DNA of 23,283 bases from a virus: IMG/VR virus record IMGVR_UViG_3300017709_000036, positions 1-23,283 of that record. The stretch is one strand, 5' to 3'. Positions 1-15,176 of the stretch are shown here, piece by piece. The notes below the pieces were generated by a model. The model was not told the DNA's origin. It made no database searches and saw nothing but the letters and a program-made list of their open reading frames with translations. Position numbers and translations under genes: made by a program. Numbering within the stretch: the stretch's first letter is position 1; each line of letters starts with the position of its first letter.

Positions 1-768
1 ATCAATCTCGCTACGGGTAAAGCCGGACTTGTCGGTTTTAGCGAGTGCAGTCTGTATGAGCTCATCCGCGGTACTAATAATGCGGACATCGACAGACTGG
101 CGGCGCAAAGCCTCATCCTCAGCCGCATAAGCATCTGCCGCTAATTTGAACAGGTTGTCATTGCGGCCACCCTCACCACCACAACCGCCATCTACAAGCT
201 TGCTGTGCTCACGCGTCAGCAACGACTGCAGATCGATCTCACGGACGACTTGAGTTACAGCAGCTAAATCACGGCGTCTGGGCAGGAACTCAATCCAGGC
301 CTCCGGCAGCTGAGCCACAGACTTGGGGGTGCCATCCCAGGTGTAGTAAGCGCCGCTGGGATGCTCACCAGCTGCAATAAACTGCTGTGATCGCCAAAAG
401 ACTTCTAGGTTACCTTTTTTCCATTTACCAGCATCTATGGGTAAGCGGGCAGACTGCTCGTCGCTCACACAATAGATATGTTTTTGCCTAGTGCTGTCAT
501 TGCTACGTCCAATAACCCAGGTGGGCAATAGCGGTAGTCCATGCGCCTGGCAGAAATCAAACGCATCAGTTCCGTCCAAATCGATGCAGACATACTTGGC
601 CTTAGCCGTATTGATGCCAACAGACCTGACCTTATCGCCCATCTTGGCAATTTGTTGCGCTGTGTAGCCTTTCTGCTGCCAGGCTTTTTCGAGTGGAGCT
701 TTATCTGGGCCACAAGGCACCAGGCATTCGCCTGGCATCTGCAGCAGCATCTCGGTTTTCCAGTTCAT
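1..768 (-). CDS. PrimPol-type primase-polymerase, N-terminal part (runs off left edge)
   Basis: An open frame of 256 codons runs leftward from ATG at 768 and is still open at base 1, so the C-terminal part is missing. The protein matches the bifunctional primase-polymerase (archaeo-eukaryotic primase, AEP) fold. The catalytic DxD sits in CIDLDG (D63, D65). A GRSN segment leads to H97 in KHIYC, the nucleotide-binding histidine motif. A third motif follows in FIAAGEHPSG and YTWDG. Such proteins prime and extend DNA. In cyanophage S-2L a PrimPol is the replicative enzyme and does not discriminate A from Z. It lies last in a minus-strand unit with a VRR-NUC nuclease and a helicase, so a replication role is likely. 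The helicase-like C-terminal region seen in many PrimPols cannot be checked here. Confidence 0.85.
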   Translation of the reverse strand, partial: MNWKTEMLLQMPGECLVPCGPDKAPLEKAWQQKGYTAQQIAKMGDKVRSVGINTAKAKYVCIDLDGTDAFDFCQAHGLPLLPTWVIGRSNDSTRQKHIYCVSDEQSARLPIDAGKWKKGNLEVFWRSQQFIAAGEHPSGAYYTWDGTPKSVAQLPEAWIEFLPRRRDLAAVTQVVREIDLQSLLTREHSKLVDGGCGGEGGRNDNLFKLAADAYAAEDEALRRQSVDVRIISTADELIQTALAKTDKSGFTRSEID

Positions 769-833
769 GTTAAACTTGATTTAGAAGCGACGATGTCGAG
801 GTCGTCGTGGACAAAGAGAGTAGGGGATCTTGA

Positions 834-858
834 GGCCTGGATAGAACCAGGCCTTTTT
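834..858 (+). terminator. Intrinsic terminator reading on the plus strand, in the PrimPol leader
   Basis: A perfect 7-bp stem (ggcctgg at 834-840 pairing with ccaggcc at 847-853, 6-nt loop) is followed directly by five T on the plus strand (854-858). This is a textbook rho-independent terminator, but no plus-strand gene lies upstream of it. In the minus orientation there is no T tract, so it would act only as a hairpin in the PrimPol mRNA leader. Confidence 0.6.
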
Positions 859-860
859 CA

Positions 861-886
861 TGTCCATGTCGAGTGTAGCATGGACA
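861..886. repeat. 8-bp inverted repeat next to the terminator hairpin
   Basis: The arms tgtccatg (861-868) and catggaca (879-886) are perfect inverted repeats with a 10-nt loop. With the adjacent hairpin at 834-853 and a short GC stem aggcg/cgcct near 897-909, this makes three stem-loops in the 149-nt gap between the PrimPol start and the VRR-NUC stop. The gap contains no gene. The stems could be a leader structure, an operator or part of an origin; nothing in the sequence decides between them. Confidence 0.5.
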
Positions 887-917
887 GGCGGTTCCGATGT
901 TGTACCAGGCGGAACGC

Positions 918-1250
918 CTAGGTACGCAGAATGTCAAGCGCTTCATCAACCGAAGTCACGACGCCAGAAATACCGCCCAAATCACGAATGCGATTGAGAA
1001 AGGCAAGCTGATCTGGTCGTGGTTTTTCACCAGCTAGCTTTACTTCAAGCGCCACAAAAATGCCTTTGCCAGCGCGGCATTGAATGCCAATTAAGTCTGC
1101 AGACCCAGGTGGTAAGCCTGCAGTTACGAAAGCTCCATCCGCTGTCTTGAACGTGCCCACACTGTTCCTAAAAATCACGCAGTTTGGCACATTCTCCGAG
1201 ATCGCAAGTCGGATCTCGTTCTGTAGCCTGGTCTCCTTTTGTACGGCCAA
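918..1250 (-). CDS. VRR-NUC domain nuclease
   Basis: This 110-residue protein is a stand-alone VRR-NUC (PD-(D/E)XK superfamily) nuclease, a size typical of phage members. The fold signature is clear: E12 in LQNEIR, FRNSVG around 27-32, GLPPGSADLIGI with D52, then LEVK with E69 and K71, and a Q81 helix. These are the metal-binding and catalytic positions of the family. Phage VRR-NUC proteins often sit beside SF2 helicases, as here, and are thought to act on branched DNA such as Holliday junctions. The start is TTG at 1250, because a stop codon lies immediately upstream in frame and no ATG precedes the first conserved glutamate. It is transcribed leftward ahead of PrimPol. Confidence 0.88.
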   Translation of the reverse strand: MAVQKETRLQNEIRLAISENVPNCVIFRNSVGTFKTADGAFVTAGLPPGSADLIGIQCRAGKGIFVALEVKLAGEKPRPDQLAFLNRIRDLGGISGVVTSVDEALDILRT

Positions 1251-1276
1251 TCATGGAAGGTTGATCAAATTGCATC

Positions 1277-1498
1277 TTAGCCCGTCCTGATGCTTCTGGC
1301 ATCCCAAACGGCAATAGCACGCTTGCCCAAGCTCACAGTGATGTGATCTGATCGGCGTGAAATGACCTTGCCTCTCTCCATGCCGCCGCCCATTTGGATC
1401 CTGACGGCATCTCCATTTCGGATGCCGTCAAAATTACCAGGATCTTTTAGCCAACGATCTATGCTTGGCATGCCAACATCCATTGTTCCGTCATGCAC
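1277..1498 (-). CDS. Small protein of unknown function
   Basis: This 73-residue frame overlaps the 3' end of the preceding minus-strand gene by 40 nt. A shorter start (ATG at 1483) would reduce the overlap to 25 nt. The central part (GDAVRIQMGGG, then MERGKVISRRSDHITVSL) has the alternating hydrophobic pattern of a small beta-barrel and ends in AVWDARSIRTG. No family is recognised. Its place between a helicase and a nuclease gene in a tightly packed unit supports it being real. Confidence 0.55.
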   Translation of the reverse strand: MHDGTMDVGMPSIDRWLKDPGNFDGIRNGDAVRIQMGGGMERGKVISRRSDHITVSLGKRAIAVWDARSIRTG

Positions 1499-1713
1499 TC
1501 CATCGTGGAAGCGTGGCGTTCAGCTATCTTCCAACTACGCATTTTGGCAAATTCCCTCCATGCCACGATCTGCCGATGATAGATTCGGGCTTTTTCGAGG
1601 CATTCACTGGCATCAGGCTCAAGAAGAATCATTGCGTTCTCAAGCTCTATCTCACAAAGTTTGGCACTAAGGGTGGTCTGGCGTGCGAGACCTAGGGGAG
1701 TGATACTTGGCAT
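1459..1713 (-). CDS. Small helical protein of unknown function
   Basis: This 84-residue frame starts at an ATG that overlaps the stop of the upstream 40-codon gene (TGATG), which suggests translational coupling. The protein is predicted mostly helical (KLCEIELENAMILLEPD, then ECLEKARIYHRQIVAW). It has no motif I can name. The last 40 nt overlap the next gene in another frame. Since both neighbours are coupled to it, it is more likely coding than a shadow. Confidence 0.55.
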   Translation of the reverse strand: MPSITPLGLARQTTLSAKLCEIELENAMILLEPDASECLEKARIYHRQIVAWREFAKMRSWKIAERHASTMECMTEQWMLACQA

Positions 1714-1870: not shown

Positions 1871-1900
1871 ATTATAACATTTCATATCGCAAGATGTCAA
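1871..1900 (-). promoter_or_regulatory. Consensus sigma70 promoter with extended -10
   Basis: On the minus strand TTGACA (1900-1895) is followed after 18 nt by TATAAT (1876-1871), and the -10 is preceded by TGT, giving an extended -10 (TGnTATAAT). Both hexamers match consensus exactly. The -35 overlaps the stop codon of the helicase gene. It should drive the small genes, VRR-NUC and PrimPol independently of the helicase. Confidence 0.75.
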
Positions 1901-3162
1901 TGCCTATGGATGCCACGGGATGCAAGGACCCTATCCGCCCATCCGCGGGCATATCCCCTTTCTTTTGCGATCAGCTCTAATTCTTCCAGATTGCGTGCAC
2001 GGCCAACCAGACGCCGTTTTTCCTTTGATATGCGCCTTTTTTCCTCTAGTAAGATGTCGGCCTCCTCGGGGATCCGACTGTCTAGCGGATGATGAAACCC
2101 GCAGTATGGACACACCCGCAGCGTTGGTCTATGAACACCAAAACAAGTCGGGCACACCCGGACTGCTACATTGGCCACTAGTCCGGCCCGCTCTTTCTTC
2201 TTCCCGCTCAAGCTCCATTCGCGCACGTCGTCGGGCATGCCATGCCGCTCGCTATTGCCAGCCGCATCCAGGATGACAGCGACATCAGCTGACGGGCGCA
2301 AGGCCCGACCAATCTGCTGTAGATGGAGGCCCAGAGATTGCGTCGGTCGGAGCAGTAACACGCAGTCACAATTTGGGACATCAAAACCTTCGGAGATTAA
2401 ATCAACGCTGAGCAGGATCTTGATACGACCGGTGCGGAAATCTTCTACTACATCTTTTCTGCTCTGCTTAGCCATCTTGCCCTCGATGCAGCCAACTGCA
2501 ACTCCAGCCTTTTTGAATGAATACTCGACTTCTTCCATGTGTGCCACTGACACGCAGAATCCAATCGTTTGTCGTCCGCCCGCTAGCAACTTCCAATTCT
2601 TGACAGCCGCGGCCACGACCTTGATCTCGCTCGTCCTCTCAGACAATGCTGCACGAGAAAAATCACCACCTTTACGGGTGAGGCCTTTAACGTCTGGTTG
2701 ACCAGGCGGACAGAACAGCTTGTATCTAGACAAAAACCCGTCTCCGATCAAGCTGGCACTGTTAGGTCCTTCCACCATCTGCTGATATACGACGTCTAAG
2801 CCTCCACCATCCAATCGCTGCGGTGTAGCTGTGAAACCAAGCACCTTTGTGCTCTTTAAGATCTTTTCTTTCCAGGTACGGGCGCAAGAATGATGGGCTT
2901 CGTCCACGATGACTAGATCTTCACCATCCGGCACCCAGCTCTGGATAGTCTGCACGTATTTGTCTGGCACCTGATCCAGCAACTCACGTCTGTGAACCAA
3001 AATCTTGACTGTGGCTCCACTAGCCCTAGCCATTGCAGCAATCTCGCAAAAAATACGTGTCTTGCCGCCACCGGTAGGCAGAACGCAGAGCACCCGGTCA
3101 TGCTCTCGGAGCCCAGCTCGTAACCGGTATAAGAGGTCCGTCTGGTAGGTTCGAAGTGGCAT
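1897..3162 (-). CDS. SF2 DEAH-box helicase with C-terminal zinc finger
   Basis: This 421-residue protein has all the core motifs of a superfamily 2 helicase: Walker A PTGGGKT (29-35), motif Ia LVHRREL, DEAH (87-90), motif III FTATPQR (110-116), a domain 2 motif around SEGFDVPNCD (257-266) and motif VI QQIGRALRP (282-290). It is a compact phage relative of the RadD/UvrB-like ResIII group. A four-cysteine finger (C337, C340, C351, C354) and a charged C-terminal helix follow. Such proteins unwind or remodel replication and recombination intermediates. The start at 3162 puts Walker A close to the N-terminus, as usual in these phage helicases. It is divergent from the recombination genes on the plus strand, across a 55-nt promoter region. 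Confidence 0.92.
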   Translation of the reverse strand: MPLRTYQTDLLYRLRAGLREHDRVLCVLPTGGGKTRIFCEIAAMARASGATVKILVHRRELLDQVPDKYVQTIQSWVPDGEDLVIVDEAHHSCARTWKEKILKSTKVLGFTATPQRLDGGGLDVVYQQMVEGPNSASLIGDGFLSRYKLFCPPGQPDVKGLTRKGGDFSRAALSERTSEIKVVAAAVKNWKLLAGGRQTIGFCVSVAHMEEVEYSFKKAGVAVGCIEGKMAKQSRKDVVEDFRTGRIKILLSVDLISEGFDVPNCDCVLLLRPTQSLGLHLQQIGRALRPSADVAVILDAAGNSERHGMPDDVREWSLSGKKKERAGLVANVAVRVCPTCFGVHRPTLRVCPYCGFHHPLDSRIPEEADILLEEKRRISKEKRRLVGRARNLEELELIAKERGYARGWADRVLASRGIHRH

Positions 3163-3217: not shown

Positions 3218-4009
3218 TTGAAACCAACTCACCATCTAACCGACATTGAGTACCGGGCTCATCCGGCAGTCTCAAGATCAGCACTTACCGATTTGATGCG
3301 CAGCCCGCTGCATTACTGGGCCAAGCATGTGGATCCCAACCGCATTGAAGCTTCTATAGATAGCCCTGCCCTTAGGTTCGGCACAGCGGCGCACATGGCC
3401 GTTCTTGAAGAGCAGCGTTTCCGTGAAACCTACCATCTAGGCCCACAAGTCAGCCGCGCCACTAAAGCTTGGAAAGATGCAGCTAAAGCTTGTACCGGTA
3501 CTCTTCTCCCACCGGATGAATATCAAGCTCTGATCGGAATCCAAACATCCTTGCGCAACCACCCTTCTGCGTCTAAAGCTTTATTTGCCGACGATGGCAT
3601 CAACGAGGCTACATTTATCGCGAATGGCCTCAAATGTCGGGCTGATCGGGTTACCGAAAAAGGCATGCTGATCGACCTGAAGACCACTCAGGACGCAAGT
3701 GCTACAGCATTTTCTAAATCTGTCGCTAATTTCAACTATCACATTCAGGCGGCGTTTTACCTGCATGTTGTAGAGATGGCCACGGGTGAGCGCCCCAAAG
3801 GCTTTGCATTTATAGCCGTTGAGAAAGCGCCTCCTTACGCTTGCCAGGTGTTCATAGCATCAGATTCCATGCTCGCTGAAGGCCTTACGCAGGTTTACCG
3901 CATGCTGGAGATGAAAGACACACTGGAGGCAGATTACGGCACAGATCCTTGGCCGTCCTACTCGGACTCACCGGTCACACTTGACCTACCACGCTGGGCA
4001 ATCAAATGA
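3218..4009 (+). CDS. RecE/exodeoxyribonuclease VIII-like PD-(D/E)XK nuclease
   Basis: This 263-residue protein matches the RecE C-terminal / DUF3799 nuclease family. The N-terminus has the typical SRSALTDLMRSPLHYW segment (19-34). GTAAH (H59) follows, then CRADRV (D143), IDLKTT (D153, K155) and HIQAAFY (Q177, Y181). These are the RecB-type catalytic motifs I-III and the QxxxY motif. It probably degrades the 5' strand of double-stranded ends to expose ssDNA for the annealing protein encoded next. The start is TTG at 3218, needed to include the conserved N-terminal segment; the next in-frame ATG (about 3296) lies inside it. It overlaps the next gene by 4 nt (ATGA). Confidence 0.88.
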   Translation: MKPTHHLTDIEYRAHPAVSRSALTDLMRSPLHYWAKHVDPNRIEASIDSPALRFGTAAHMAVLEEQRFRETYHLGPQVSRATKAWKDAAKACTGTLLPPDEYQALIGIQTSLRNHPSASKALFADDGINEATFIANGLKCRADRVTEKGMLIDLKTTQDASATAFSKSVANFNYHIQAAFYLHVVEMATGERPKGFAFIAVEKAPPYACQVFIASDSMLAEGLTQVYRMLEMKDTLEADYGTDPWPSYSDSPVTLDLPRWAIK

Positions 4010-4410
4010 AGCAAATCATCGCAGCCCTAATCAAATTTCAACGAGAGGTCGGACCGATCCACAAAGAGTCGTCTGCGCAGTACGGCAAATATGCCGATCT
4101 GCAGACAGTCCTGACTAAAGTCAATCCCGTCCTCAATGAGAATGGTTTGTTTATCACCCAGCTTCTTGCTGGCAAAAACCTGATCACCGAAGTCCATCAC
4201 ACCAGTGGTGAAGCGTTGGTATCTGACTGTGAGTTGGTTCTCACAGAAGGACGCAATGCACTACACACTTGGGGTGGTGCCGTTACTTATCAACGAAGGT
4301 ACGCCATCTTGTCGATTTTAGGACTGGCCACTGAGGATGATGACGGTGACAGTGCAGGGCATAAAATGGTAAAAACCAATTCCCTAAGTAATGTCGACGA
4401 TTTCTTCTGA
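4006..4410 (+). CDS. ERF-family single-strand annealing protein
   Basis: This 134-residue protein matches the ERF superfamily of phage recombinases. The signatures are KYADLQTVL (28-36), NPVLNENGLFITQ (40-52) and GAVTYQRRYAILSILGLATEDDDGD (91-115, the conserved C-terminal motif). It should coat ssDNA made by the RecE-like nuclease and anneal it to complementary strands. It is shorter than P22 Erf (about 200 residues) and seems to consist of the core domain only. The last residues, VDDFF, are acidic-aromatic and recall the tip of SSB proteins; a shared partner is only a guess. Start ATG overlaps the nuclease stop. Confidence 0.9.
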   Translation: MKQIIAALIKFQREVGPIHKESSAQYGKYADLQTVLTKVNPVLNENGLFITQLLAGKNLITEVHHTSGEALVSDCELVLTEGRNALHTWGGAVTYQRRYAILSILGLATEDDDGDSAGHKMVKTNSLSNVDDFF

Positions 4411-4904: not shown

Positions 4905-5107
4905 TGACAGCTGCCGTCAAAGGCGACAGAGGCTGGGACAAGCAATTCCAGGCCAAAATCTCGGACCTGCACAAGGACTTTTGGGATCACTGGAAAGAAG
5001 TCGATTACGACACCGTGCTGCACACTACCGCAACGATAGTCGACATGTTGCCTAAACTTATCGAACTCTCGCATACGCGAGGTAAGCAGGGGTACAAGAA
5101 AAGATGA
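4904..5107 (+). CDS. Small protein of unknown function upstream of purZ
   Basis: This 67-residue, mostly helical and charged protein (DKQFQAKISDLHKDFWDHWK near the start, GKQGYKKR at the end) is coupled on both sides: its ATG overlaps the previous stop (TAATG) and its TGA overlaps the purZ start (ATGA). No family is recognised. Since it is translationally linked to purZ, it may serve replication or the Z pathway, but nothing in the sequence shows this directly. Confidence 0.6.
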   Translation: MTAAVKGDRGWDKQFQAKISDLHKDFWDHWKEVDYDTVLHTTATIVDMLPKLIELSHTRGKQGYKKR

Positions 5108-6165
5108 ATCGTGATCTGATTCTGGACTGCCAATTCGGTAGCACAGGCAAGGGGCTATTTGCTAGTCACTTGGCCGCGAGGAAAAGCCCAGACACTATTG
5201 CGTATGCGCCGTCACCCAACGCCGGTCACACGTTCTACTACTCTGGCAAAAAGTACATCCACAAGATGTTGCCCAGCGGGATCAGCAGTTCCGGACTCAA
5301 GACAATCGTCTTGGGACCCGGTTCCCTGCTGGACCTAGACAGGCTCTACGACGAGATCAACAATCTGCCATTCAAAGTGGCCGTTCTCGTCCACAGGAAT
5401 GCGGCTTGCGTGCTTGACCGCCACAGAGCAGCTGAGGCGAAAGGAGGCACCGCTCCTGGCTCTACGAGACAGGGCGTCGGGGCTGCCCAGGCCGAGCGTA
5501 TCCTGCGCCAGCCCATGCACAACAATCTTGCGGGTGAGAATCAAGACCACAGAGTCTTTGACCATGTCAGCATCATTGACACGCCCACTATGCAGCGGGT
5601 CTACTTTGACTCCCATCAGCTGCTGATCGAGAGCTGCCAGGGCTACAGCTTGTCTGTCCTGCACGGCTTCTATCCGCACGTCACATCACGAGACGTGACA
5701 ACGGCTTCGATTCTCGCCGATACCGGCGTGCCCTATAGCCATCAGATGGTAGTGTATGGCACGTTTAGGACTTACCCGATCCGCGTAGCCAACCGCCCAG
5801 AATCTGGAGAATACAGCGGGCCTGGTTTTATCGATTCGCAGGAAACCTCTTTTGAAGCTATTGGTCAACCAACCGAGTTGACTACAGTCACTAAGCTTCC
5901 GAGGCGCATCTTTACCTGGAGTCAGCAGCAGGCTATAGAAGCTTGCAACCAGAACCGTGTAGATGTCGCCTTTCTCAATTTCGCTCAGTACCCCCCTTCC
6001 TTCGATGAATTGGTCCATATTTGGGAATCTCTCGGCGAAAGCACTCAAGTGGGCTTTTTGGGATTCGGACCCAAGAGTGAAGATGTCCTCCGCGTCGGAG
6101 CCCCTTCCATTAGTCGTGACCAAGCATACGCTGCCTGGAAGCGATATCGCACAGCTGCAAGATGA
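5104..6165 (+). CDS. purZ: PurZ: N6-succino-2-amino-deoxyadenylate synthase
   Basis: This 353-residue protein is an adenylosuccinate synthetase homologue with PurZ features. PurZ condenses dGMP with aspartate, using ATP (or dATP in S-2L), to give the succino precursor that host PurB cleaves to dZMP. Visible motifs are QFGSTGKG (10-17), where cellular PurA has QWGDEGKG, NAGHT (39-43, with H42), HKMLPSGI (53-60), GSTRQGVG (119-126), CQG (178-180) and HGFYPHVTS (187-195). The catalytic Asp13 of PurA is Ser13 here, the hallmark substitution of PurZ. At 353 residues it is much shorter than bacterial PurA (about 430). It sits directly before mazZ and datZ. Start ATG is coupled to the gene upstream. 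An ordinary PurA or an archaeal-like PurA is less likely because of Ser13 and the neighbours. Confidence 0.93.
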   Translation: MNRDLILDCQFGSTGKGLFASHLAARKSPDTIAYAPSPNAGHTFYYSGKKYIHKMLPSGISSSGLKTIVLGPGSLLDLDRLYDEINNLPFKVAVLVHRNAACVLDRHRAAEAKGGTAPGSTRQGVGAAQAERILRQPMHNNLAGENQDHRVFDHVSIIDTPTMQRVYFDSHQLLIESCQGYSLSVLHGFYPHVTSRDVTTASILADTGVPYSHQMVVYGTFRTYPIRVANRPESGEYSGPGFIDSQETSFEAIGQPTELTTVTKLPRRIFTWSQQQAIEACNQNRVDVAFLNFAQYPPSFDELVHIWESLGESTQVGFLGFGPKSEDVLRVGAPSISRDQAYAAWKRYRTAAR

Positions 6166-6424
6166 AATCGCCGAGTGGGCTAACTTCACAATTCCCGACC
6201 GCACGGCCTACTCGACTGTTGCCAAGCTACTAGAAGAAATTGGAGAGCTTATCGCGTCTGAACGCATGAGTGATCCTCAAGAACTGGCCGATGTCGCCAT
6301 ATTGGTGCTCGATCTGTTCTACCTTCAAGAGGTAGACATGGTAGATGCAGTGCGTTCCAAAATGATGGTGAACGTACGGAGGAATTGGAGAATCGCTGAC
6401 AACGGGAGCGCCAAACATGTCTGA
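6083..6424 (+). CDS. mazZ: MazZ: MazG-like (d)GTP pyrophosphohydrolase
   Basis: The protein (113 residues from ATG 6083, or 102 from GTG 6116) has the all-alpha NTP pyrophosphohydrolase motifs: LLEEIGE, giving EExxE, and ELAD, giving ExxD, 12 residues later, which bind the metal ions. LDLFYLQEVDMVDAVRSKM and NVRRNW make the last helices, typical of single-domain MazG proteins. In S-2L the equivalent gene between purZ and datZ converts dGTP to dGMP, the PurZ substrate. The start is uncertain: ATG 6083 means an 83-nt overlap with purZ, GTG 6116 a 50-nt overlap, and neither has a strong Shine-Dalgarno. The stop overlaps the datZ start by 8 nt. Confidence 0.85.
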   Translation: MSSASEPLPLVVTKHTLPGSDIAQLQDEIAEWANFTIPDRTAYSTVAKLLEEIGELIASERMSDPQELADVAILVLDLFYLQEVDMVDAVRSKMMVNVRRNWRIADNGSAKHV

Positions 6425-6968
6425 ACCAATGGATTTTGCACCACCTGCCACCAAGAAACACACCGGCCCACTGAATGGAGCTGCAGACTACCTCAAGGCT
6501 CAGTACATCAACCGTTGGGGTATCGTGTGCACCGCCAAACAGCAATCAATTGCAGAACATTCCTACAACGTCTGGGTACTTGTATCCCATTGGGGGCCGG
6601 AAGTGCTCAATCTGCACGAGTTGCAATGTGCCCAGGAGTATGCCCTAACGCATGATCTGGCAGAGATCCGCACAGGCGACTGCCCAACACCATTCAAAGA
6701 CCCAATGGTCAAACAGGCCTTAGGCGAGCTGGAGATGGAAATCTGCCCGCAGATCCCTGTGACTCCTAAGATCAAACAGTTGGTGAAGTACTGTGACACT
6801 GCGGAATCAGTGCTGTTCCTTAAACTGTACGGGTTGGGCAAACATGCTGACGACGTCCGCGAGTTGCTTGCCGTGCAGATGTGGGCTCGGCTAAAAGACA
6901 GCCTGTTTTCCACAAACCAACGTCAGAAGCTACATGACCTTTTTAATGAGACCTTCCATGACATTTGA
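6417..6968 (+). CDS. datZ: DatZ: HD-domain dATP triphosphohydrolase
   Basis: This 183-residue HD phosphohydrolase (YfbR-like fold) has the metal ligands H48 (IAEHSYN), H79-D80 (THDLAE), with E83, and D127 (YCDTAES). In S-2L, DatZ removes the triphosphate from dATP and so keeps adenine out of the genome. W34, I36 and P92 are spaced from the HD motif as I recall for the S-2L adenine-pocket residues (from memory). Spacing between H48 and H79 and between D80 and D127 appears slightly different from S-2L, which would argue for a relative rather than the same protein. ATG 6417 overlaps mazZ; ATG 6429 is a possible shorter start. A general 5'-nucleotidase such as YfbR is the alternative, made unlikely by the neighbours. 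Confidence 0.87.
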   Translation: MSEPMDFAPPATKKHTGPLNGAADYLKAQYINRWGIVCTAKQQSIAEHSYNVWVLVSHWGPEVLNLHELQCAQEYALTHDLAEIRTGDCPTPFKDPMVKQALGELEMEICPQIPVTPKIKQLVKYCDTAESVLFLKLYGLGKHADDVRELLAVQMWARLKDSLFSTNQRQKLHDLFNETFHDI

Positions 6969-7227
6969 CCAGATGCAGCAGGCAACAGCGATGCATTCTA
7001 GGGGACATAGTGCGCTGTCAATCGCCAGATGCTTAACCGGTGTCAGCTACCGCGAAATTGAGCAGCATTTTGACTTTCCAAAGCATCCTGAGCATTTTGG
7101 ATTCACCCAAGGTTTTGCCAAATGGTTGATGGAAGACTGCAAGTACACTTGGCGCCCTAACAATCAGAACGCTCCAGACGCTCCATGGTCACGCGTACCC
7201 GGACTGGCTGAATATGAACAAGGCTGA
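6958..7227 (+). CDS. Small possible helix-turn-helix protein downstream of datZ
   Basis: This 89-residue protein has an N-terminal part that reads like a helix-turn-helix (TFDQMQQATAMHSRGHSALS, then IARCLTGVSYREIEQHF). An aromatic, proline-rich tail follows (YTWRPNNQNAPDAPWSRVPG). The ATG at 6958 is preferred over an upstream ATG at 6934, because it overlaps the datZ stop by only 11 nt. Its stop is coupled to the next gene (14-nt overlap). It could be a regulator or a DNA-binding accessory of the Z cassette. No family is recognised with certainty. Confidence 0.58.
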   Translation: MTFDQMQQATAMHSRGHSALSIARCLTGVSYREIEQHFDFPKHPEHFGFTQGFAKWLMEDCKYTWRPNNQNAPDAPWSRVPGLAEYEQG

Positions 7228-7516
7228 TTTTCAGAGAGTGTTGCACGAGACCAGCGACACCCTCCAAGTGCTGACAGATTCCAAAGGTCGGGAATACGCC
7301 AACAGCTGTGACCAGCTAGCCAACTTTAAACGGTTGTCGGCCCAGCTGGGGCTCACTAAAGAGCAGGTAGTCATGGTCTATCTCTCCAAGCACTTGGATT
7401 CAATCCATAGCTACGTGCGGAATCCAGATCAGGATCTGTCGGAGCCGATTCAAGGGCGCATCCATGACGCCATCCTCTATCTCGTTCTCCTCAAAGCCTG
7501 CATCGATGAAGACTAA
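7214..7516 (+). CDS. Probable nucleotide-modification-associated / MazG-like helical protein
   Basis: This 100-residue, all-helical protein has GREYANSCDQLANFKR in the middle (residues 25-40), then LSKHLDSIHSYV and SEPIQGRIHDAILYLVLLKAC. This pattern resembles small phage proteins of the DUF1599 / Nmad1 type, related to all-alpha NTP pyrophosphohydrolases. The candidate acidic or metal-binding side chains are in KHLDS and RIHDA. In phages with modified bases such genes sit in the modification cassette. Here it lies two genes after datZ in the same coupled operon, so a nucleotide-pool role is plausible but not shown. Confidence 0.6.
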   Translation: MNKADFQRVLHETSDTLQVLTDSKGREYANSCDQLANFKRLSAQLGLTKEQVVMVYLSKHLDSIHSYVRNPDQDLSEPIQGRIHDAILYLVLLKACIDED

Positions 7517-8387
7517 GAGCTACAACGTTTGCGACAGATTCCCACCTCTGCTAACCGCGGCAGAGGAGATTGAAATGGGGCGCCGCATTCAAACGATGCA
7601 GAAGCTTAAGCAAAAGCCCAAGCAAGAATTAACAAAATCGGAGCTCATCCAGATTAAGCGGGGACAACGGGCGTTGAACCGTATGATTTCGGGCAATCTT
7701 CGGATGGTCGCTGGGATCGCCCGTAAGTATACCGGCATCGTCAATCATCTGTCATTTGACGACATCATCCAGGAGGGAAATGTCGGGCTCTGCCGTGCTG
7801 CGGAGAAGTATGATCCCACTCGTGGCTACAAATTCAGCACTTATGCATACTGGTGGATACGGCAGTCAATCAATCGAGCCATCAGTGACAAAGAGCGCGT
7901 AGTGCGCATTCCGTGCAACGCTTTTGAATCGATTGGCAGAGCTTTATCTTGGCAGCAAGAATTTGAGCAAAAACACGGGCATCAGCCAACAATCAATCAA
8001 GTAGCGGCTCACATCCGGATCTCACCAGAAGTTTTAGTGTCAGCACTACGTGCCTACTGGCGAGGCCCAAGCCTTGATGCTTCAGCAAAAGACAAAAACG
8101 GTCAGACAGGCGGGGCTGCACTAGTAGATCTTTTTTCTAATCCATCAGACGCGGATCCATTAGACGAAATCGAGCATGGTATGCAGCGAGAGAAGCTGTA
8201 TAGCATAGTCGGCACTCTGCCTGACGTACAAAAAGAGCTGTTGGGAGAGTATTACGGACTGTTCGGGCAAGACCCTGTCAGTTTTACCGTCATGGGAAAA
8301 AAGCGCGGCGTTTCGCGTGAAGCGATCAGCCAGAAATGCCACCGTGCTATCAATGCACTGTCCATGAAAGCTCGCATGCTGCAGTAG
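7506..8387 (+). CDS. Phage-encoded sigma70-family (group 2-like) sigma factor
   Basis: This 293-residue protein has the full primary-sigma layout without region 1.1. Region 1.2 is PLLTAAEEIEMGRR (14-27). Region 2 has SGNLRMVAGIARKY (62-75), LSFDDIIQEGNVGL (82-95) and GYKFSTYAYWWIRQSINRAI (107-126), the core-binding and -10-melting segment. Region 3 has QPTINQVAAHI. Region 4.2 is KKRGVSREAISQKCHRAINAL, a divergent -35-binding helix-turn-helix. YAYWW is what cyanobacterial group-2 sigma factors carry in place of YATWW. It should redirect host RNA polymerase to phage promoters. The start at ATG 7506 overlaps the upstream stop by 11 nt. It is the last gene of the operon, and no terminator is visible after it. 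Confidence 0.9.
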   Translation: MKTKSYNVCDRFPPLLTAAEEIEMGRRIQTMQKLKQKPKQELTKSELIQIKRGQRALNRMISGNLRMVAGIARKYTGIVNHLSFDDIIQEGNVGLCRAAEKYDPTRGYKFSTYAYWWIRQSINRAISDKERVVRIPCNAFESIGRALSWQQEFEQKHGHQPTINQVAAHIRISPEVLVSALRAYWRGPSLDASAKDKNGQTGGAALVDLFSNPSDADPLDEIEHGMQREKLYSIVGTLPDVQKELLGEYYGLFGQDPVSFTVMGKKRGVSREAISQKCHRAINALSMKARMLQ

Positions 8388-8412
8388 TCAGAATGGTGCA
8401 GGTGATGCGCTT

Positions 8413-8628
8413 CTATTCAAGACAAACAAGTTGAGCATCCATTTCGGAAATCCGGCTAATCGCCTGGCACAGCAATCTGCGCTGGTGCCAATTTTGGCGT
8501 ACCAATGCAACACATAACCCTTGGACTTCTTCGATGTCTTCGGTGTTATAAATGGAGCGTACCGACCGCTCCATTGCGAGCTCGTCATGGAGGGTTTGTT
8601 CTGCGACCATCCACTTCATGTCGTCCAT
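8413..8628 (-). CDS. Small conserved cyanophage-type protein
   Basis: This 71-residue helical protein has the core LVRQNWHQRRLLCQAISRISEMDAQ near its C-terminus. I recognise the pattern from small proteins of marine cyanophages, but they have no known function. ATG 8628 is preferred over the TTG directly upstream, since ggag lies 7 nt before it. It overlaps the previous minus-strand gene by 44 nt and ends 25 nt from the convergent sigma-factor stop. Confidence 0.6.
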   Translation of the reverse strand: MDDMKWMVAEQTLHDELAMERSVRSIYNTEDIEEVQGLCVALVRQNWHQRRLLCQAISRISEMDAQLVCLE

Positions 8629-8812
8629 CAATCATCTCCAAGATTTTGCGTTCCTCAGAATAGGGACGCCTAGCCCGAATATAGTCATGGACTGCAGGGG
8701 CTAACCACTCATGCGGCGGCCAACAGTTATTCCAATTCACAGGCTGCACACAGCCGACCACCACGGTGCTCCAGAAGGCAATTGTATAGCTCCATAGCCA
8801 GTATAGGCCCAT
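8585..8812 (-). CDS. Small putative lipoprotein or membrane protein
   Basis: This 75-residue protein starts with a hydrophobic segment (MGLYWLWSYTIAFWSTVVVGC) that ends in VVGC, a loose lipobox with Cys21 as possible lipidation site. The rest is polar (DYIRARRPYSEERKILEMID). It starts 6 nt after the stop of the C39-like peptidase gene, so it is probably co-expressed. A spanin-like role in lysis is possible from context, but the sequence alone does not show it. It overlaps the next gene by 44 nt. Confidence 0.5.
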   Translation of the reverse strand: MGLYWLWSYTIAFWSTVVVGCVQPVNWNNCWPPHEWLAPAVHDYIRARRPYSEERKILEMIDGRHEVDGRRTNPP

Positions 8813-8818
8813 TACAGC

Positions 8819-9529
8819 CTACTCATCATCGATCAGGATTACCCAGCCCGTTCCAGCACCCTCAACTTCCCAACGCTGCTTAAACGCTTGACGTGATACT
8901 TTGGCGTTTTTTCCGCCATATCGACCTACATGATTTCCACGTTCGATATCTGGCAAACCTCTTGGATCGTGCATGACCCAATCATCCTTGTCAAAACCAA
9001 CGATAAGGCTCCAATGACCGCAGCCGTAACTGTCACACATTGGCGGTTCACCTCTACTCATGTCACCATGATGGAGCCATCCAACCATGACTGGACGGCC
9101 AGCTGCTAGTTCAGCTTCAATCAAGCTCCCATCGCCGTCCTGCCTAAATTCTGCATATAAGCCCAAACTTCTCAGCGCATGAATCTGAGCATCAATACTT
9201 GTTGTATCGCCAAACCGTTCTCTGATCTTGTTGTATCCATCGTCAGTTTTCACTTTTCCATAGAAGGCTGCGGCCATCGCGGCGGAAGAGCTGAAACATT
9301 CTCTGTAACCCCTGCCGCTTTTATTGTCCAGCTGATGGAAATAGGGCACCAGAATCTGCTGTGCTATTCCGCTGGCCTTCCAAGCTTCAAACCAAGCAGC
9401 ATCTTCTCTCAGCAGTTCTTCAGGCAAAGCATCTTCTAGCTCTGAGATTGCTGCTAGCTGGTGTGGAGTTCCGCGAAAGTGACTGAAAAAAGGGAGAAGA
9501 CTAATCACCAAAAAAGAGAAACGGTTCAT
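8819..9529 (-). CDS. C39-like papain-fold cysteine peptidase (possible endolysin)
   Basis: This 236-residue protein matches the peptidase C39-like family 2 fold. Gln66 (HQLDNK) is the likely oxyanion residue, Cys78 in RECFSSSAAM the nucleophile, His172 in GHWSLIVGF the general base and Asp188 in MHDPRG the third member. The N-terminus (MNRFSFLVISLLPFF) is a hydrophobic segment that may act as a signal sequence, followed by a Glu-rich linker. Two tiny membrane proteins precede it and a possible lipoprotein follows, so it may be the phage's wall-degrading enzyme or an exported peptidase. No canonical endolysin was found elsewhere in the window. The start overlaps the upstream stop (ATGA). Substrate, peptide or peptidoglycan cross-bridge, is not known. 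Confidence 0.75.
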   Translation of the reverse strand: MNRFSFLVISLLPFFSHFRGTPHQLAAISELEDALPEELLREDAAWFEAWKASGIAQQILVPYFHQLDNKSGRGYRECFSSSAAMAAAFYGKVKTDDGYNKIRERFGDTTSIDAQIHALRSLGLYAEFRQDGDGSLIEAELAAGRPVMVGWLHHGDMSRGEPPMCDSYGCGHWSLIVGFDKDDWVMHDPRGLPDIERGNHVGRYGGKNAKVSRQAFKQRWEVEGAGTGWVILIDDE

Positions 9530-9684
9530 TTGCTCAACGCTGGTCTAGGGCATTCCGGGCGCTGAGACAAGCCTGCATGGTAACCACTTAGAAAGAAAAA
9601 TCCAGCTGCACCAATGATCGCAGTGGCTAGCGTTCCCAAGACAAAAAACCCGCCAACTAAGACCCAAGTTGGGTCAGCCTTCAT
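9526..9684 (-). CDS. 52-residue single-pass membrane protein
   Basis: An ATG at 9684 opens a 52-residue frame with one long hydrophobic helix (WVLVGGFFVLGTLATAIIGA, then AGFFFLSGYHAG) and a polar, cysteine-containing tail ending in RPALSK. Both ends use the ATGA overlap, with the gene before and with the peptidase gene after. The size, single helix and position directly before a peptidase gene suggest a holin-like or pinholin-like role; this is inference. Confidence 0.62.
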   Translation of the reverse strand: MKADPTWVLVGGFFVLGTLATAIIGAAGFFFLSGYHAGLSQRPECPRPALSK

Positions 9685-9854
9685 TTCTCGACTCTTGCTT
9701 CAGGGAACAGGTTCTTGCTCACATACTCACAGACTTGGTCGTCGATAGTATTGTCTGTGGTCTTGACGTAAGCCTGAAGCAAATCAAGGACCAGAACTTT
9801 GACCGCTTTGCTCTTAAGGAATGAGAACAGAATCGGACGGATTAAGAACAGCAT
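9681..9854 (-). CDS. 57-residue small phage protein
   Basis: An ATG at 9854 opens a 57-residue frame. It has a short hydrophobic N-terminus (MLFLIRPILFSFLKS), a helix KVLVLDLLQAYVKTT, then DNTIDDQVCEYVSKNLFP. The last part is a pattern I know from small proteins near phage lysis genes. It is coupled to the next membrane-protein gene by ATGA. No biochemical role is known. Confidence 0.6.
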   Translation of the reverse strand: MLFLIRPILFSFLKSKAVKVLVLDLLQAYVKTTDNTIDDQVCEYVSKNLFPEARVEK

Positions 9855-9878
9855 AAGAGTTTGATCATTGATAAGAGT

Positions 9879-10130
9879 CTAATTCCGATCACTGTGACCC
9901 TCCAGTCTTGCAAGTGATCGTTCCAGCTCACCGATTCTGGCGAAAATCTCTCTGTCCCTAGCCATCAAGTCGTTATGAAGCACATTCATACGGGTAGCTA
10001 GATTATCGACAGCTGAAGTTAACCTTACGAGTGAATCACGCCCAGCCTGACTCTGGCTATTAGCGCGGGCAATCCCAAGACCAGCCACCCCAACGGATGC
10101 TCCTGCTATGGCCGCTAAGATTTCGATCAC
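9879..10130 (-). CDS. Membrane-anchored coiled-coil protein
   Basis: This 83-residue protein has one N-terminal membrane helix rich in Ala and Gly (ILAAIAGASVGVAGLGIA). It is followed by a heptad-like coiled coil (DSLVRLTSAVDNLATRM, then RIGELERSLARLEG). The layout is like that of small phage anchors found in lysis regions. The start is GTG at 10130. It is divergent from the plus-strand holin-like gene, with only 26 nt between them, so their promoters must overlap genes or be shared. Confidence 0.62.
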   Translation of the reverse strand: MIEILAAIAGASVGVAGLGIARANSQSQAGRDSLVRLTSAVDNLATRMNVLHNDLMARDREIFARIGELERSLARLEGHSDRN

Positions 10131-10156
10131 CGCTTAGCTCAACTCTTCTATTGACA

Positions 10157-10423
10157 ATGGTAGACCCACAAGAGAATCAAGACCATAAAGAAGGAGTCCC
10201 AATCGCAGATCTTGTCAAATGTGCTGTTTTGATTTGGAGCGCAACACTGTTGACTGTTTCTTATCTGGGTTTCTTTCCACAGATGAAGATGGACAATACC
10301 TTCGTAGCCAGTCTGCTCACCGGGGCGATGGCCTCTTTTGGTATTGAGCGTAAATCCGCCAATCAGCAAAAAAAAGTGCCACCTAAAGTTGAAACACCTA
10401 CTAACACGCCTACTCCGCAATGA
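10157..10423 (+). CDS. Holin-like small membrane protein
   Basis: This 88-residue protein has two hydrophobic segments: LVKCAVLIWSATLLTVSYLG (about 18-37) and TFVASLLTGAMASFGI (about 48-63). They are followed by a charged, proline-rich tail (KKVPPKVETPTNTPTPQ). Size, topology and tail fit phage holins of the cyanophage type. The start is ATG 10157; TTGACA directly upstream (10151-10156) looks like a -35, but I see no matching -10. It overlaps the next gene by ATGA and heads a plus-strand group of secreted proteins. Confidence 0.6.
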   Translation: MVDPQENQDHKEGVPIADLVKCAVLIWSATLLTVSYLGFFPQMKMDNTFVASLLTGAMASFGIERKSANQQKKVPPKVETPTNTPTPQ

Positions 10424-10908
10424 AACGGTTTGCTCTCTTAGCGATTGCGCTGTTCCTAGCCCCAGCAGCTCAAGCAGATCTGACACACAAAATCCAATCA
10501 AGTATTCAATTGCAGGTGGGAGGCGCGATGACCACTGCAAATCGCATTGGGTCAACTTTTTCGGTCAGCGGTTCAGGCGTTGATACGACAGACGGCACCA
10601 CGGCCAATACTATCAGCACAGGTGCTATTACATCAGGTGTCTATGCCCCAGGAACCATTGCTGCAACTCAAGACAACCCTGGTTCGGCCTTCAGCTTTAG
10701 TCAGTCCTACACCCAGGCCGATGCCGTCCCAACATCGGCAGCCGCAACCGGAGCAGTCCAAAACTTTGGCAGCTTGCAATCTACGGCTTCAGGCACTGCT
10801 TCCACACTGGCAGGCACAATCTCAAGTGCGGGAGCCATGACTGTGACAGCTGGTGGAGCGAACACTCTTGGTATTGGACAATTTGTTACTGAGTTGAGCA
10901 TCGATTGA
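10420..10908 (+). CDS. Secreted Ser/Thr/Ala-rich protein
   Basis: This 162-residue protein has a clean Sec signal peptide (MKRFALLAIALFLAPAAQA, cleavage after AQA about residue 19). The mature part is low in charge and rich in Ser, Thr, Ala and Gly, with many short repeats such as SQSYTQADAVPTSAA and TASGTASTLAG, and is predicted to form beta strands. I do not recognise a named domain. Two further signal-peptide proteins follow, each overlapping the previous gene, so the three probably act together at the cell envelope or on the virion. Confidence 0.7.
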   Translation: MKRFALLAIALFLAPAAQADLTHKIQSSIQLQVGGAMTTANRIGSTFSVSGSGVDTTDGTTANTISTGAITSGVYAPGTIAATQDNPGSAFSFSQSYTQADAVPTSAAATGAVQNFGSLQSTASGTASTLAGTISSAGAMTVTAGGANTLGIGQFVTELSID

Positions 10909-11309
10909 TGCGGTTTCTGTTGCTGCTCCTGTTGTTTGCTCCAGCTGCAAACGCTGTGCCAGTTGTGCCCAATTTTTCAACTGGCTCAATGACGACACAT
11001 TCAGAAACAACCAGTAACGTCACAGAAACAATTGTGAGCGAGTCCTACGAAACTGGCTGGCAATATTCTGTTAGTGGCACCAACATAAGTCCAGTAAACG
11101 GAGCCAGCCTCACACCAGGCACAACAACGGTTAACGGATGGTCAGCTCTCGACGTAAACAACAAGCCAAGTTGGAACATTGTCAACCCTGGTGGAGCGTT
11201 TCAGTTCGTAGAAACTTACTCCGGTCCAGGTCTGTCAAACGTGACAACAATCCAGCGCGTCACCGAAATCAATCAAATCACCGACACTATCTCTACCTTC
11301 TCGCAATAG
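10908..11309 (+). CDS. Secreted cyanophage-type protein (VTETIVSE family)
   Basis: This 133-residue protein has a signal peptide (MRFLLLLLLFAPAANA, cleavage after ANA). The mature part contains SNVTETIVSESYETGWQYS, NPGGAFQFVETYSGPGLSN and TTIQRVTEINQIT. These are segments I associate with an uncharacterised protein of marine T4-like cyanophages and the cyanobacteria they infect. It is predicted to be all beta. ATG 10908 overlaps the previous stop as TGATG; a TTG directly before it is in frame but unnecessary. Function unknown. Confidence 0.72.
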   Translation: MRFLLLLLLFAPAANAVPVVPNFSTGSMTTHSETTSNVTETIVSESYETGWQYSVSGTNISPVNGASLTPGTTTVNGWSALDVNNKPSWNIVNPGGAFQFVETYSGPGLSNVTTIQRVTEINQITDTISTFSQ

Positions 11310-11992
11310 TCCTAGCTGCTCCAGCCAACGCAGAAACGATTGGTGGTGTCTCCGCCACTGCCGCGCCAACTGCTACGAGTTCGGGAAGCGTAACCAACCA
11401 AGCGGTAATGATTGCGCCATCTCAGCATCTGACGAATTCGTATGGTAATGGCATTCAATGTCAAGGCCCAATTCTTACGGTCACTCCCTATGTCAATCGA
11501 TCCAAATCTTGGCAGCTTCCGTTTGAGAGTTATTATGACGACCCTGTATATGATCTCAGTGATCGGGATGATAACGGGATACTCGATAATCCTGGATCCG
11601 TCCTATATGAGATGCCAACGAGAACGGGCCAACGCGATTCGCACAACTGGAGTGGCGGACTTTCGATGCAAGTAACCATCCCCTTAGATGGTGGCCTACA
11701 AGCACGATGCAAAGCGATGGCTGATGCCAACATCAGACTGCATGAACAGCTTCTGGCTACAAAACGTTTAGAGTTTGAGCTCGCGCGACTTCGCGCCTGC
11801 GCCGATCAAAAATTACGTGGCGTTGAATTTCATCCCAAAAGCCCCATATTTAGAATTTGCGCTGACATAGTCATCAAGCCCAAGCCCGGACAGGTATTGC
11901 AGCACAAACATGCTATCCCTTCTGCTTTGCCCGTTGAGTTTTCCGGCGCTCAAACACCGATACAGGTGGTGCCTTTTTCCCAAAAGCCTTAG
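11138..11992 (+). CDS. Secreted cyanophage-type protein (ETIGGVSATA family), start unresolved
   Basis: The reliable part begins around 11280 with a signal-like segment YLYLLAIVLAAPANAETIGG. It continues with NSYGNGIQCQGPILTVTPYV, PFESYYDDPVYD, YEMPTRTGQRDSHNW, a helix RLHEQLLATKRLEFELARL and FHPKSPIFRICADIV. This matches an uncharacterised family of marine cyanophages that follows the preceding gene type. No ATG, GTG or TTG lies at the expected start. The nearest in-frame candidates are TTG 11171 and ATG 11138, which give an Arg-rich leader that is only the shadow of the upstream gene. ATA at 11306 overlaps the upstream stop but leaves too short a signal. The 3' end overlaps the convergent gene by 80 nt. 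Confidence 0.68.
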   Translation: MVSSRRKQQAKLEHCQPWWSVSVRRNLLRSRSVKRDNNPARHRNQSNHRHYLYLLAIVLAAPANAETIGGVSATAAPTATSSGSVTNQAVMIAPSQHLTNSYGNGIQCQGPILTVTPYVNRSKSWQLPFESYYDDPVYDLSDRDDNGILDNPGSVLYEMPTRTGQRDSHNWSGGLSMQVTIPLDGGLQARCKAMADANIRLHEQLLATKRLEFELARLRACADQKLRGVEFHPKSPIFRICADIVIKPKPGQVLQHKHAIPSALPVEFSGAQTPIQVVPFSQKP

Positions 11993-12533
11993 AGATTTTG
12001 GTCAGCGCCTTTTTGACTGCAGGCTTGATCAGTTTCAACAAAAACGGAGTGGCAAGACCTGCCGCAACACCCACTGAGGCCGTAAGAGCAACAGTCGTTG
12101 CTGCCGGCAAAGACGGGACAGCATTTAGCATCTGTTCAGGCAGCTTGATCTCTTCGTACAAGACGACACATTTGCCGTCCTGTAACTCGTAGCCTGAAAT
12201 TCTTTTGTTACCACCTTGAATAACCGTACCAATCCCCTTGGCCCTCAAGGGAGGGCACCTAGGATCCTCATCAATCTTCGCTTTCGGCTTGGGAAGATTC
12301 GGCGTAGCTGGCGCTGGCGCTTGTGGTGTCTCAGGCGTCGAAGTTTTTGGCAACGGAGCAACTGGGTCAAAAACTAGCTTCGTTGGCCTGTAGTCCATTG
12401 GGTTGAACTCAGGCAAATCAATGATTGGAGTACCAATGTTGACCGTAACCGGTGGTGCAGTTGGAATCGATAACGGCGCTAAGCCATTCCAGCTCCGAAT
12501 CTCGCTGATCCCAATCGTGCGAATCTCGGGCAT
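11913..12533 (-). CDS. Cyanophage-type proline-rich protein with C-terminal membrane helix
   Basis: This 206-residue protein starts with IRTIGISEIRSWNGLAPLS and PTAPPVTVNIGTPIIDLP, segments I know from uncharacterised proteins of marine cyanophages. A Pro/Ala-rich linker follows (TPETPQAPAPATPNLPKPK, about 66-84), then a compact domain RISGYELQDGKCVVLYEEIK. A hydrophobic helix (TTVALTASVGVAAGLATPF) and a Lys-rich tail end the protein. It may be a virion or envelope protein. Start ATG overlaps the upstream stop (TAATG). The last 80 nt are antisense to the end of the convergent plus-strand gene. Confidence 0.7.
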   Translation of the reverse strand: MPEIRTIGISEIRSWNGLAPLSIPTAPPVTVNIGTPIIDLPEFNPMDYRPTKLVFDPVAPLPKTSTPETPQAPAPATPNLPKPKAKIDEDPRCPPLRAKGIGTVIQGGNKRISGYELQDGKCVVLYEEIKLPEQMLNAVPSLPAATTVALTASVGVAAGLATPFLLKLIKPAVKKALTKISKAFGKKAPPVSVFERRKTQRAKQKG

Positions 12534-12769
12534 TAAAACGGCAACGCCGGACCAGTCTGAGTTGGCAATGCAGGCATCATTTCCTTGACCTGGCTTGGCA
12601 TCGCATCTGTCACCGCTCCAGAGACTAGCTCACCGACAAGAGCTTTAGCCTCATCGATTGCTTTTTCCTTTATTTCTGGCAGTTTGCTGAAAGCATAGAA
12701 GCTTGTGCCGACCAACGCTCCAGACATCGCGAACGATAAGACAGCAAGCGTGTTAATGATCTTTTGCAT
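12533..12769 (-). CDS. Small membrane-anchored protein, cyanophage type
   Basis: This 78-residue protein has an N-terminal membrane helix (MQKIINTLAVLSFAMSGALV), an amphipathic helix (PEIKEKAIDEAKALVGEL) and an acidic/Pro-rich end (MMPALPTQTGPALPF). The ending and the MQKIIN start are typical of a small marine cyanophage family paired with the gene downstream, to which it is coupled by TAATG. Its ATG lies only 6 nt from the T tract of the terminator before it, so it needs either readthrough or a promoter I cannot see. Confidence 0.68.
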   Translation of the reverse strand: MQKIINTLAVLSFAMSGALVGTSFYAFSKLPEIKEKAIDEAKALVGELVSGAVTDAMPSQVKEMMPALPTQTGPALPF

Positions 12770-12775
12770 GTGTAT

Positions 12776-12809
12776 AAAAAAACCCCTAGCAGTGTGAGGC
12801 TACTAGGGG
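12776..12809 (-). terminator. Intrinsic terminator after the barrel-protein gene
   Basis: On the minus strand CCCCTAG (12809-12803) pairs with CTAGGGG (12789-12783) across a 13-nt loop, followed by seven T (12782-12776). It should end the transcript of the small outer-membrane-like gene, and possibly the long tail operon. Confidence 0.8.
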
Positions 12810-12810
12810 C

Positions 12811-12831
12811 AATCCTGAGTTTAACAGGATT
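12811..12831. repeat. 7-bp inverted repeat beside the terminator
   Basis: AATCCTG (12811-12817) and CAGGATT (12825-12831) form a perfect stem with a 7-nt loop, 5 nt after the stop codon of the barrel gene. It has no T tract and probably protects the 3' end or assists the terminator next to it. Confidence 0.5.
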
Positions 12832-12836
12832 CTAGC

Positions 12837-13196
12837 TTAGAAATTGTACTTAGCACCAAGCTTGCCGCCGTAGCTGTTGTTCAAGTCGCCAGTGATTCCA
12901 GCAAGCTCTGCATAGACAGAAACCTTGTCAGAAGCAGCAACTGAACCGCCGATTTTACCGGAGAATTCCATCTCCGAATCCATGCCGTCAACGGATACGA
13001 GGGCAGGCCCTCCCTGCGCGTAGATACTATAGGGACCTTCACTATGCTCAAAGCCCATATGCAGGTCAGTGACGTTGCCTGAATAGTCAGAACCGACCCA
13101 ACCCGCATTAGCCTCTATGTTGACATAGGGGCCTGCAACAGCAGCAGACGCTCCAAATGCAAGAGCACCCGCAGCGCAAGAAAAAGATTTGATCAT
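12837..13196 (-). CDS. Small secreted beta-barrel (porin-like) protein
   Basis: This 119-residue protein has a signal peptide (MIKSFSCAAGALAFGASAAVAG, cleavage near VAG). The mature part shows alternating beta strands: PYVNIEANAGWVGSDYSGNV, YSIYAQGGPALVSVDG, EMEFSGKIGGSVA, VSVYAELAGITG and a final KLGAKYNF. A terminal Phe is the usual assembly signal of outer-membrane beta-barrels. The length allows only a small barrel. Similar proteins occur in marine cyanophages; whether they insert in the host outer membrane or sit on the virion is unknown. ATG 13196 is chosen because it begins the signal peptide; longer in-frame starts would give an unlikely N-terminus. Confidence 0.72.
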   Translation of the reverse strand: MIKSFSCAAGALAFGASAAVAGPYVNIEANAGWVGSDYSGNVTDLHMGFEHSEGPYSIYAQGGPALVSVDGMDSEMEFSGKIGGSVAASDKVSVYAELAGITGDLNNSYGGKLGAKYNF

Positions 13197-13254
13197 GAAA
13201 CTAAGCAAAACCAACCTGAGTCTACTTGCCCTGACCCCTAGGCAGCTTCCTTCT

Positions 13255-13300
13255 ATGGGACGGTTTAGAATGCGTCCCATTGCCCTGGCGGGTTTTTTTT
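13255..13300 (+). terminator. Terminator-like hairpin and T tract on the plus strand
   Basis: A perfect 8-bp stem (13255-13262 with 13273-13280, 10-nt loop) is followed after 12 nt by eight T (13293-13300); a small CCC/GGG stem sits just before the T tract. It could stop plus-strand readthrough from the 10157-11992 operon before it runs antisense into the tail genes. The rest of the 13197-13343 gap holds no gene that I can see. Confidence 0.5.
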
Positions 13301-13343
13301 GGCTGGCTCTTAACGAATTCAGTTTCAGACGATGAGTTTTTCA

Positions 13344-13652
13344 CTATACGATTGTCCAAGTGCTTGTAGCACCAACCGTGACTGTAACGCCAGAATTGAC
13401 TGTAATGGGGCCTGCACTCATGGCGTTTTTATTGGACGTCACTGTGTAATTGTTTGAAATTGTCTGCGAGTTTTCGTAGATGCAATCGTCAGCAACAGTA
13501 CCCCCGCCGCCTGCAATTTCAGCTACAGAATTGTCGTCTTTTTTAGTAAAAACAACGCCTGTGTCTGTTCTGATGGCAAGTTCGCCAACAACTAAATCTG
13601 AGGCGCTTGGGTCTGAACCGCTTGCGCGTTTGTGCTTAATTGTGTTTGCCAT
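13344..13652 (-). CDS. Tail-fibre-type protein with short C-terminal beta module
   Basis: This 102-residue protein starts with a motif common at the N-terminus of phage fibre proteins (IKHKRASGSDPSASDLVVGE, then LAIRTDTGVVFTKKDDNSV). It then has a Gly-rich hinge. The C-terminal module has IYENSQTISNNYTVTSN, GPITVNSGVTVTV and a closing TWTIV. The same module ends the 189-residue fibre protein at 18439-19008. It is the last gene of the tail operon. It probably attaches to the tail tip; its target is unknown. Confidence 0.7.
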   Translation of the reverse strand: MANTIKHKRASGSDPSASDLVVGELAIRTDTGVVFTKKDDNSVAEIAGGGGTVADDCIYENSQTISNNYTVTSNKNAMSAGPITVNSGVTVTVGATSTWTIV

Positions 13653-15173: not shown

Positions 15174-15176
15174 GGC

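Follow-up and report, generated by a model that had tools for sequence, protein, structure and literature searches.

Does a cyanophage that carries the S-2L set of Z enzymes build its genome with 2-aminoadenine (Z) in place of adenine and, if so, which polymerase copies that genome? The question is raised by a 23,283-base IMG/VR virus record, a fragment of an uncultured cyanobacterial virus, which we refer to in its whole length as the window. A first-pass annotation had described three overlapping plus-strand genes at 5104-6968, with no other gene between them, which resembled the S-2L enzymes and each carried a metal or catalytic motif. These points were borne out: purZ, mazZ and datZ form an overlapping plus-strand cluster at 5104-6968 with mazZ in the middle, their products match the solved S-2L proteins, and the alignments show almost all of the catalytic and specificity residues described in the literature to be conserved. 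The triad comprises:

purZ, 5104..6165, plus strand: 353 aa, predicted 2-amino-adenylosuccinate (dSMP) synthetase (E 2.5e-104 to 7odx; phrog_1211; residues).
mazZ (MazZ-1 type), about 6083..6424, plus strand: predicted (d)GTP pyrophosphohydrolase (E 7.6e-26 to 7ody; PF04447 dATP/dGTP pyrophosphohydrolase; residues).
datZ, 6417..6968, plus strand: 183 aa, predicted dATP triphosphohydrolase with an HD domain (E 3.2e-40 to 6zpa; phrog_7076; residues).

E values of this size rule out chance matches, and all three frames are intact. Residue roles were taken from PMC8342488 (PurZ, MazZ) and PMC8065100 (DatZ), with positions carried over by alignment. Among solved structures, S-2L PurZ (7odx) was the best match for the window PurZ, followed by phiVC8 PurZ (E about 5e-64) and ordinary PurA, and S-2L PurZ was also its closest relative in 50,697 phage records (50.7% identity). 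The serine swap proposed earlier for position 13 held up, as S13 aligns both with S23 of S-2L and with the aspartate that is catalytic in E. coli PurA. Likewise kept are V228 (S-2L V241), R231 (R244), T260 (T273) and Q295 (Q308); the dGMP and ATP pockets are preserved in the alignment, and only Y21F, Y203H, C204V and Y272L differ from S-2L among the listed positions. Membership in the PurA superfamily (PF00709) would suit an ordinary adenylosuccinate synthetase that converts IMP to AMP and aids the purine metabolism of the host, MazZ and DatZ being pool enzymes unrelated to it. We find this hardly credible, however, given that the S-2L PurZ match lies far above any PurA match, that Ser13 occupies the essential PurA aspartate site while the dGMP-pocket residues are kept, and that the specificity residues of DatZ and MazZ are kept as well. 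A 2026 survey points the same way, with serine at the PurA catalytic-aspartate site in 147 of 147 phage PurZ proteins and aspartate in 99% of the E. coli PurA group (PMC12884076). No PurZ relatives were confirmed in bacterial genome contigs.

The mazZ frame is open over 5963-6424, but homology begins only at about 6131. Since the alignment with S-2L MazZ (7ody) begins at residue 60 of the mechanical open reading frame, the gene should start downstream of 5963, and we rejected that mechanical start as too far upstream. Among the candidate starts, ATG 6083 is the likely one, with GTG 6116 and CTG 6131 as alternatives; the 5' part of the gene overlaps the 3' end of purZ. The metal ligands E92, E95, E107 and D110 (S-2L E35, E38, E50 and D53) are kept, as are the guanine-specificity pair I113 and D117 (I56 and D60) and R140 (R83). 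Differences were seen at S-2L positions I16, N20, A92, M93 and R94, the first three of which are unique to S-2L according to PMC8342488.

The third gene, datZ, overlaps mazZ by 8 bases. S-2L DatZ is the closest relative of its product in the 50,697 phage records (46% identity), and none of the 12 listed residues is altered; these include R33, K94, K124, the specificity residues W34 and I36 (S-2L W20 and I22) and the metal ligands H48, H79, D80, D127, E83 and D88, covering both the HD site and the second metal site (S-2L E70/D75). In S-2L, I22 keeps out the 2-amino group and W20 keeps out ribose (PMC8065100). Judged from sequence, the three functions are assigned with high confidence; the triad itself is an already known kind of system.

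We therefore turn to the route that these enzymes would form. MazZ would convert dGTP to dGMP. At the expense of ATP or dATP, PurZ would join this dGMP to aspartate to form dSMP, which host enzymes would carry on to dZMP and dZTP. DatZ would break down dATP, and a polymerase blind to the difference between A and Z, for which the PrimPol-VapE protein described below is the likeliest candidate, would put Z opposite T. The reactions are drawn from solved and assayed homologues; the genes, their order, the residues and the absence of PolA, PolB and PolC come directly from the sequence. All points that can be tested in this way (best matches, residues, gene order and cyanophage structural proteins) support a Z-genome cyanophage, and we consider it highly probable that this phage swaps adenine for Z through a nucleotide pool remade in the S-2L fashion, with PrimPol-VapE most likely doing the copying. 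A further point in favour is that the S-2L triad by itself introduced Z into E. coli DNA (PMC8342488). Adenine was replaced there only in part (about 12% in plasmids; PMC8342488), a figure that would fit a phage with partial replacement or, further, a decayed or inactive triad and a genome that is mainly ordinary A:T. This we regard as improbable, as no frame is broken and almost every catalytic residue is present, the triad is retained in relatives whose PurZ is 51-100% identical, and the same genes accompany complete adenine replacement in S-2L (PMC8065100).

The first-pass annotation had allowed that the DNA might be that of S-2L itself, a caveat now resolved: with a PurZ only 50.7% identical to that of S-2L and no close DNA match to the window among the 50,697 phage records, S-2L is ruled out and the phage lies outside that collection. 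A second contig, G009 (37,862 bases), is 99.7% identical to window positions 5994-23283 and overlaps window positions 1-1612 with its opposite end; by arithmetic on the overlaps, the two join into a circular map of roughly 42.2 kb. At the window edge lies the candidate replicase gene, which the first-pass annotation had passed over:

PrimPol, 1..768, minus strand: AEP primase-polymerase domain (PF09250, E 4.7e-11), N-terminal 256 codons, cut at the window edge.

The whole protein, present at full length in G009 and G001, is a 706-aa fusion of AEP and VapE helicase, and PF09250 matched in the window (G000), G001 and G009. It had been suggested that a DpoZ gene be sought in the rest of the genome. 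That search found none in the window or G009, leaving the situation of S-2L, PrimPol plus DatZ; with PF00476 (PolA) unmatched in the window, G001 and G009, a DpoZ elsewhere in the genome was rejected. Models for PolB (PF00136) and PolC (PF07733) found no match in the window or G009. The window genome thus has an AEP-VapE PrimPol and no PolA, as in S-2L-type (PrimPol) Z phages, and lacks the PolA-family DpoZ of the DpoZ type, making PrimPol-VapE the sole candidate polymerase on the combined map.

The S-2L replicase is an AEP-VapE fusion of the same architecture (PMC8065100). The N-terminal AEP part of the window protein could not be aligned with that of S-2L by BLAST, and PF09250 picks up the window domain and not the S-2L one, indicating that the two AEP domains belong to different families. 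No sequence link was found between the window AEP and any solved AEP, and an AlphaFold model from a three-sequence alignment reached a pLDDT of 37. By visual inspection, D63, D65 and E122 were taken to be the acidic catalytic triad, and all three are conserved between the window protein and its relatives; the putative motif-II histidine H98 is arginine in the relatives G018 and L075. Together, the failed alignment with the S-2L AEP, the pLDDT of 37 and the unconserved H98 leave the polymerase activity of PrimPol less than certain.

Two scans of IMG/VR recovered 25 further contigs, many of them short fragments, whose PurZ is 51-100% identical to that of the window; all 25 carry the triad or whatever part of it fits on the contig. 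The window PurZ falls inside the S-2L clade of the PurZ tree. With a support of 98/99, the members of the group included in the tree join S-2L in a single clade that excludes the PolA-bearing phages sampled. PolA was unmatched in all 23 relatives searched (the 25 minus L006 and L010). Where the replicase locus lies on the contig, it takes two forms besides that of S-2L: the window-type AEP-VapE (G001, G009 and G018) or a TOPRIM-VapE protein (12 contigs: G002, G004-G007, G011, G012, G016, G017 and G019-G021). The TOPRIM-form protein, of 638-652 aa, has a zinc ribbon and a TOPRIM primase domain fused to VapE, and neither AEP nor PolA was matched in the 12 contigs. This assignment is based on the motifs EGETCAEAL and PDRDRPG, PHROG primase/helicase matches and Foldseek; Pfam Toprim_2 gave a sub-threshold match only. 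The model of the N-terminus was poor overall (pLDDT 55.5), with a better C-terminal half, for which Foldseek gave matches (probability 0.99-1.0, E 0.002-0.02) to Twinkle, RNase M5 Toprim and DnaG.

Because its two 99-base ends are identical, G017 was treated as a closed circular genome (39,452 bases). The PolA, PolB and PolC models found no match in it, and its larger open reading frames have homologues in other genomes, except for a 798-aa frame in the tail-gene region. Complete or near-complete TOPRIM-VapE genomes of Z-cluster cyanophages with no DNA polymerase recognisable by the profile searches used are G017 (L079-L081), G004 (L020-L022), G006 (L023-L025) and G016 (L076-L078). TOPRIM-type relatives also carry a dCTP deaminase-like gene (PF22769; L020:9848-10366 in G004), which was not seen in the window. 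From their gene content, TOPRIM-type phages, if they make Z-DNA, must draw Z from an altered pool and have it copied by a host polymerase.

The same could apply to the window phage: PrimPol-VapE may only prime and unwind, with the cyanobacterial host polymerase making Z-DNA from the altered pool. We hold this to be less probable than not, yet a serious contender, as 12 triad-bearing sister contigs, all without PolA or AEP, encode a TOPRIM primase-VapE helicase at the corresponding locus, PolB and PolC are absent from those checked, the putative AEP motif-II histidine is unconserved, and Klenow polymerase does not tell A from Z (PMC8342488). Conversely, the PrimPol of S-2L has been shown to polymerise (PMC8065100), and the window protein and its relatives share D63, D65 and E122; copying by the phage PrimPol-VapE is the reading we prefer.

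Phages with the window-type AEP occupy two distinct branches of the PurZ tree, both adjoining TOPRIM-type phages; the fork of the window has a support of 94/92. Unlike the PurZ tree, the helicase domains cluster by primase type. The simplest reading of these sequences would be that the replicase was exchanged at least twice while the Z-cluster was retained. A broader proposal, which we consider evenly balanced, is that in the S-2L-type PurZ clade base identity is set wholly by the pool and the replicase is interchangeable (two AEP families or a TOPRIM primase-helicase), the TOPRIM branch of 12 contigs being fully Z through the host replicative polymerase. Two metagenomic fragments, L045 and L046, lie near S-2L (MazZ 83-87% and DatZ 81-86% identical), and more distant PurZ contigs (G027-G030; L049-L051, L053) have PolA and AEP primase genes side by side.

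In 2021, S-2L was described as the sole member of its PurZ clade and the one Z phage lacking a PolA-type polymerase (PMC8342488). The 2026 survey drew on an NCBI virus collection; PrimPol and metagenomes go unmentioned in its text (PMC12884076). We found no report in the open-access literature of Z-cluster phages without a polymerase or of replicase variation. The window phage is a second lineage beside S-2L with the three Z enzymes, and the pairing of the triad with another AEP family is new, as is the TOPRIM sister group. Together, these findings turn the S-2L exception into a group of cyanophages with differing replicases. They raise the question of whether an ordinary cellular DNA polymerase can build a fully Z-substituted genome once the pool is altered, which is also relevant to introducing Z-DNA into laboratory bacteria.

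Around the cluster, the following genes were assigned:

VRR-NUC nuclease, 918..1250, minus strand: 43% identity to S-2L S2L_31.
Superfamily II helicase, 1897..3162, minus strand: 45% identity to S-2L S2L_30.
PD-(D/E)XK exonuclease, 3218..4009, plus strand.
ERF single-strand annealing protein, 4006..4410, plus strand.
orf97, 6934..7227, plus strand: directly 3' of datZ, in 21 distinct contigs of the branch of the window.
orf100, 7214..7516, plus strand: phrog_6802, conserved behind the cluster.
Phage sigma-70 factor, 7464..8387, plus strand: PF04542 and PF04539, 40% to the KBS-S-2A RpoD-like protein.
C39-like peptidase domain protein, 8819-9529, minus strand: matches the PHROG endolysin family phrog_10051.

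Confined to the window's branch of the clade, orf97 is a possible fourth member of the cluster; neither S-2L nor the canonical cyanophages have it, and a search of named phages gave no match. We rejected orf100 as a Z-specific gene, relatives of it occurring in phages without an annotated Z-cluster near that gene; S2L_21 has no detectable homology to either frame. A second sigma-70-type gene lies at G009:32359-32928, giving two per genome in the group; perhaps, as a speculation, Z-containing promoters need a phage sigma factor.

Compared with known systems, the window phage shares with S-2L (MW334946.1) the purZ-mazZ-datZ order with overlaps, the MazZ-1 type, the PrimPol-VapE fusion, the lack of PolA and a helicase, VRR-NUC, ERF and exonuclease near the cluster. 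For the helicase and VRR-NUC, S-2L was the closest of four cyanophages compared. S-2L differs in that identities are 51% for PurZ, about 54% for MazZ and 46% for DatZ, its AEP domain belongs to a family other than the PF09250 type of the window, and the structural genes are distant (capsid 24% versus G009). The DpoZ-type phages phiVC8 and SH-Ab 15497 likewise carry purZ, a MazG-like gene and datZ consecutively, but PolA adjoins their cluster whereas the window and G009 have none, and their PurZ is only about 40% identical. The Synechococcus WH7803 phages KBS-S-2A and S-H1, in turn, resemble G009 in capsid (80% (80.5%) and 77%), portal (78% and 75%) and terminase (about 61%), but lack PurZ and the Z-cluster; PurZ is absent from MED4-184, too. 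S-H1 further differs in its annotated cytosine and adenine DNA methyltransferases (L084 8371-11506), a possible alternative to Z as protection against restriction. With structural genes like those of Synechococcus phages and replication genes like those of S-2L, the genome looks chimeric, resembling a marine Synechococcus siphophage structural backbone joined to an S-2L-like Z/replication module. Such chimerism suggests that the module passes from one cyanophage backbone to another, in this case to a marine Synechococcus type whose named members are without it.
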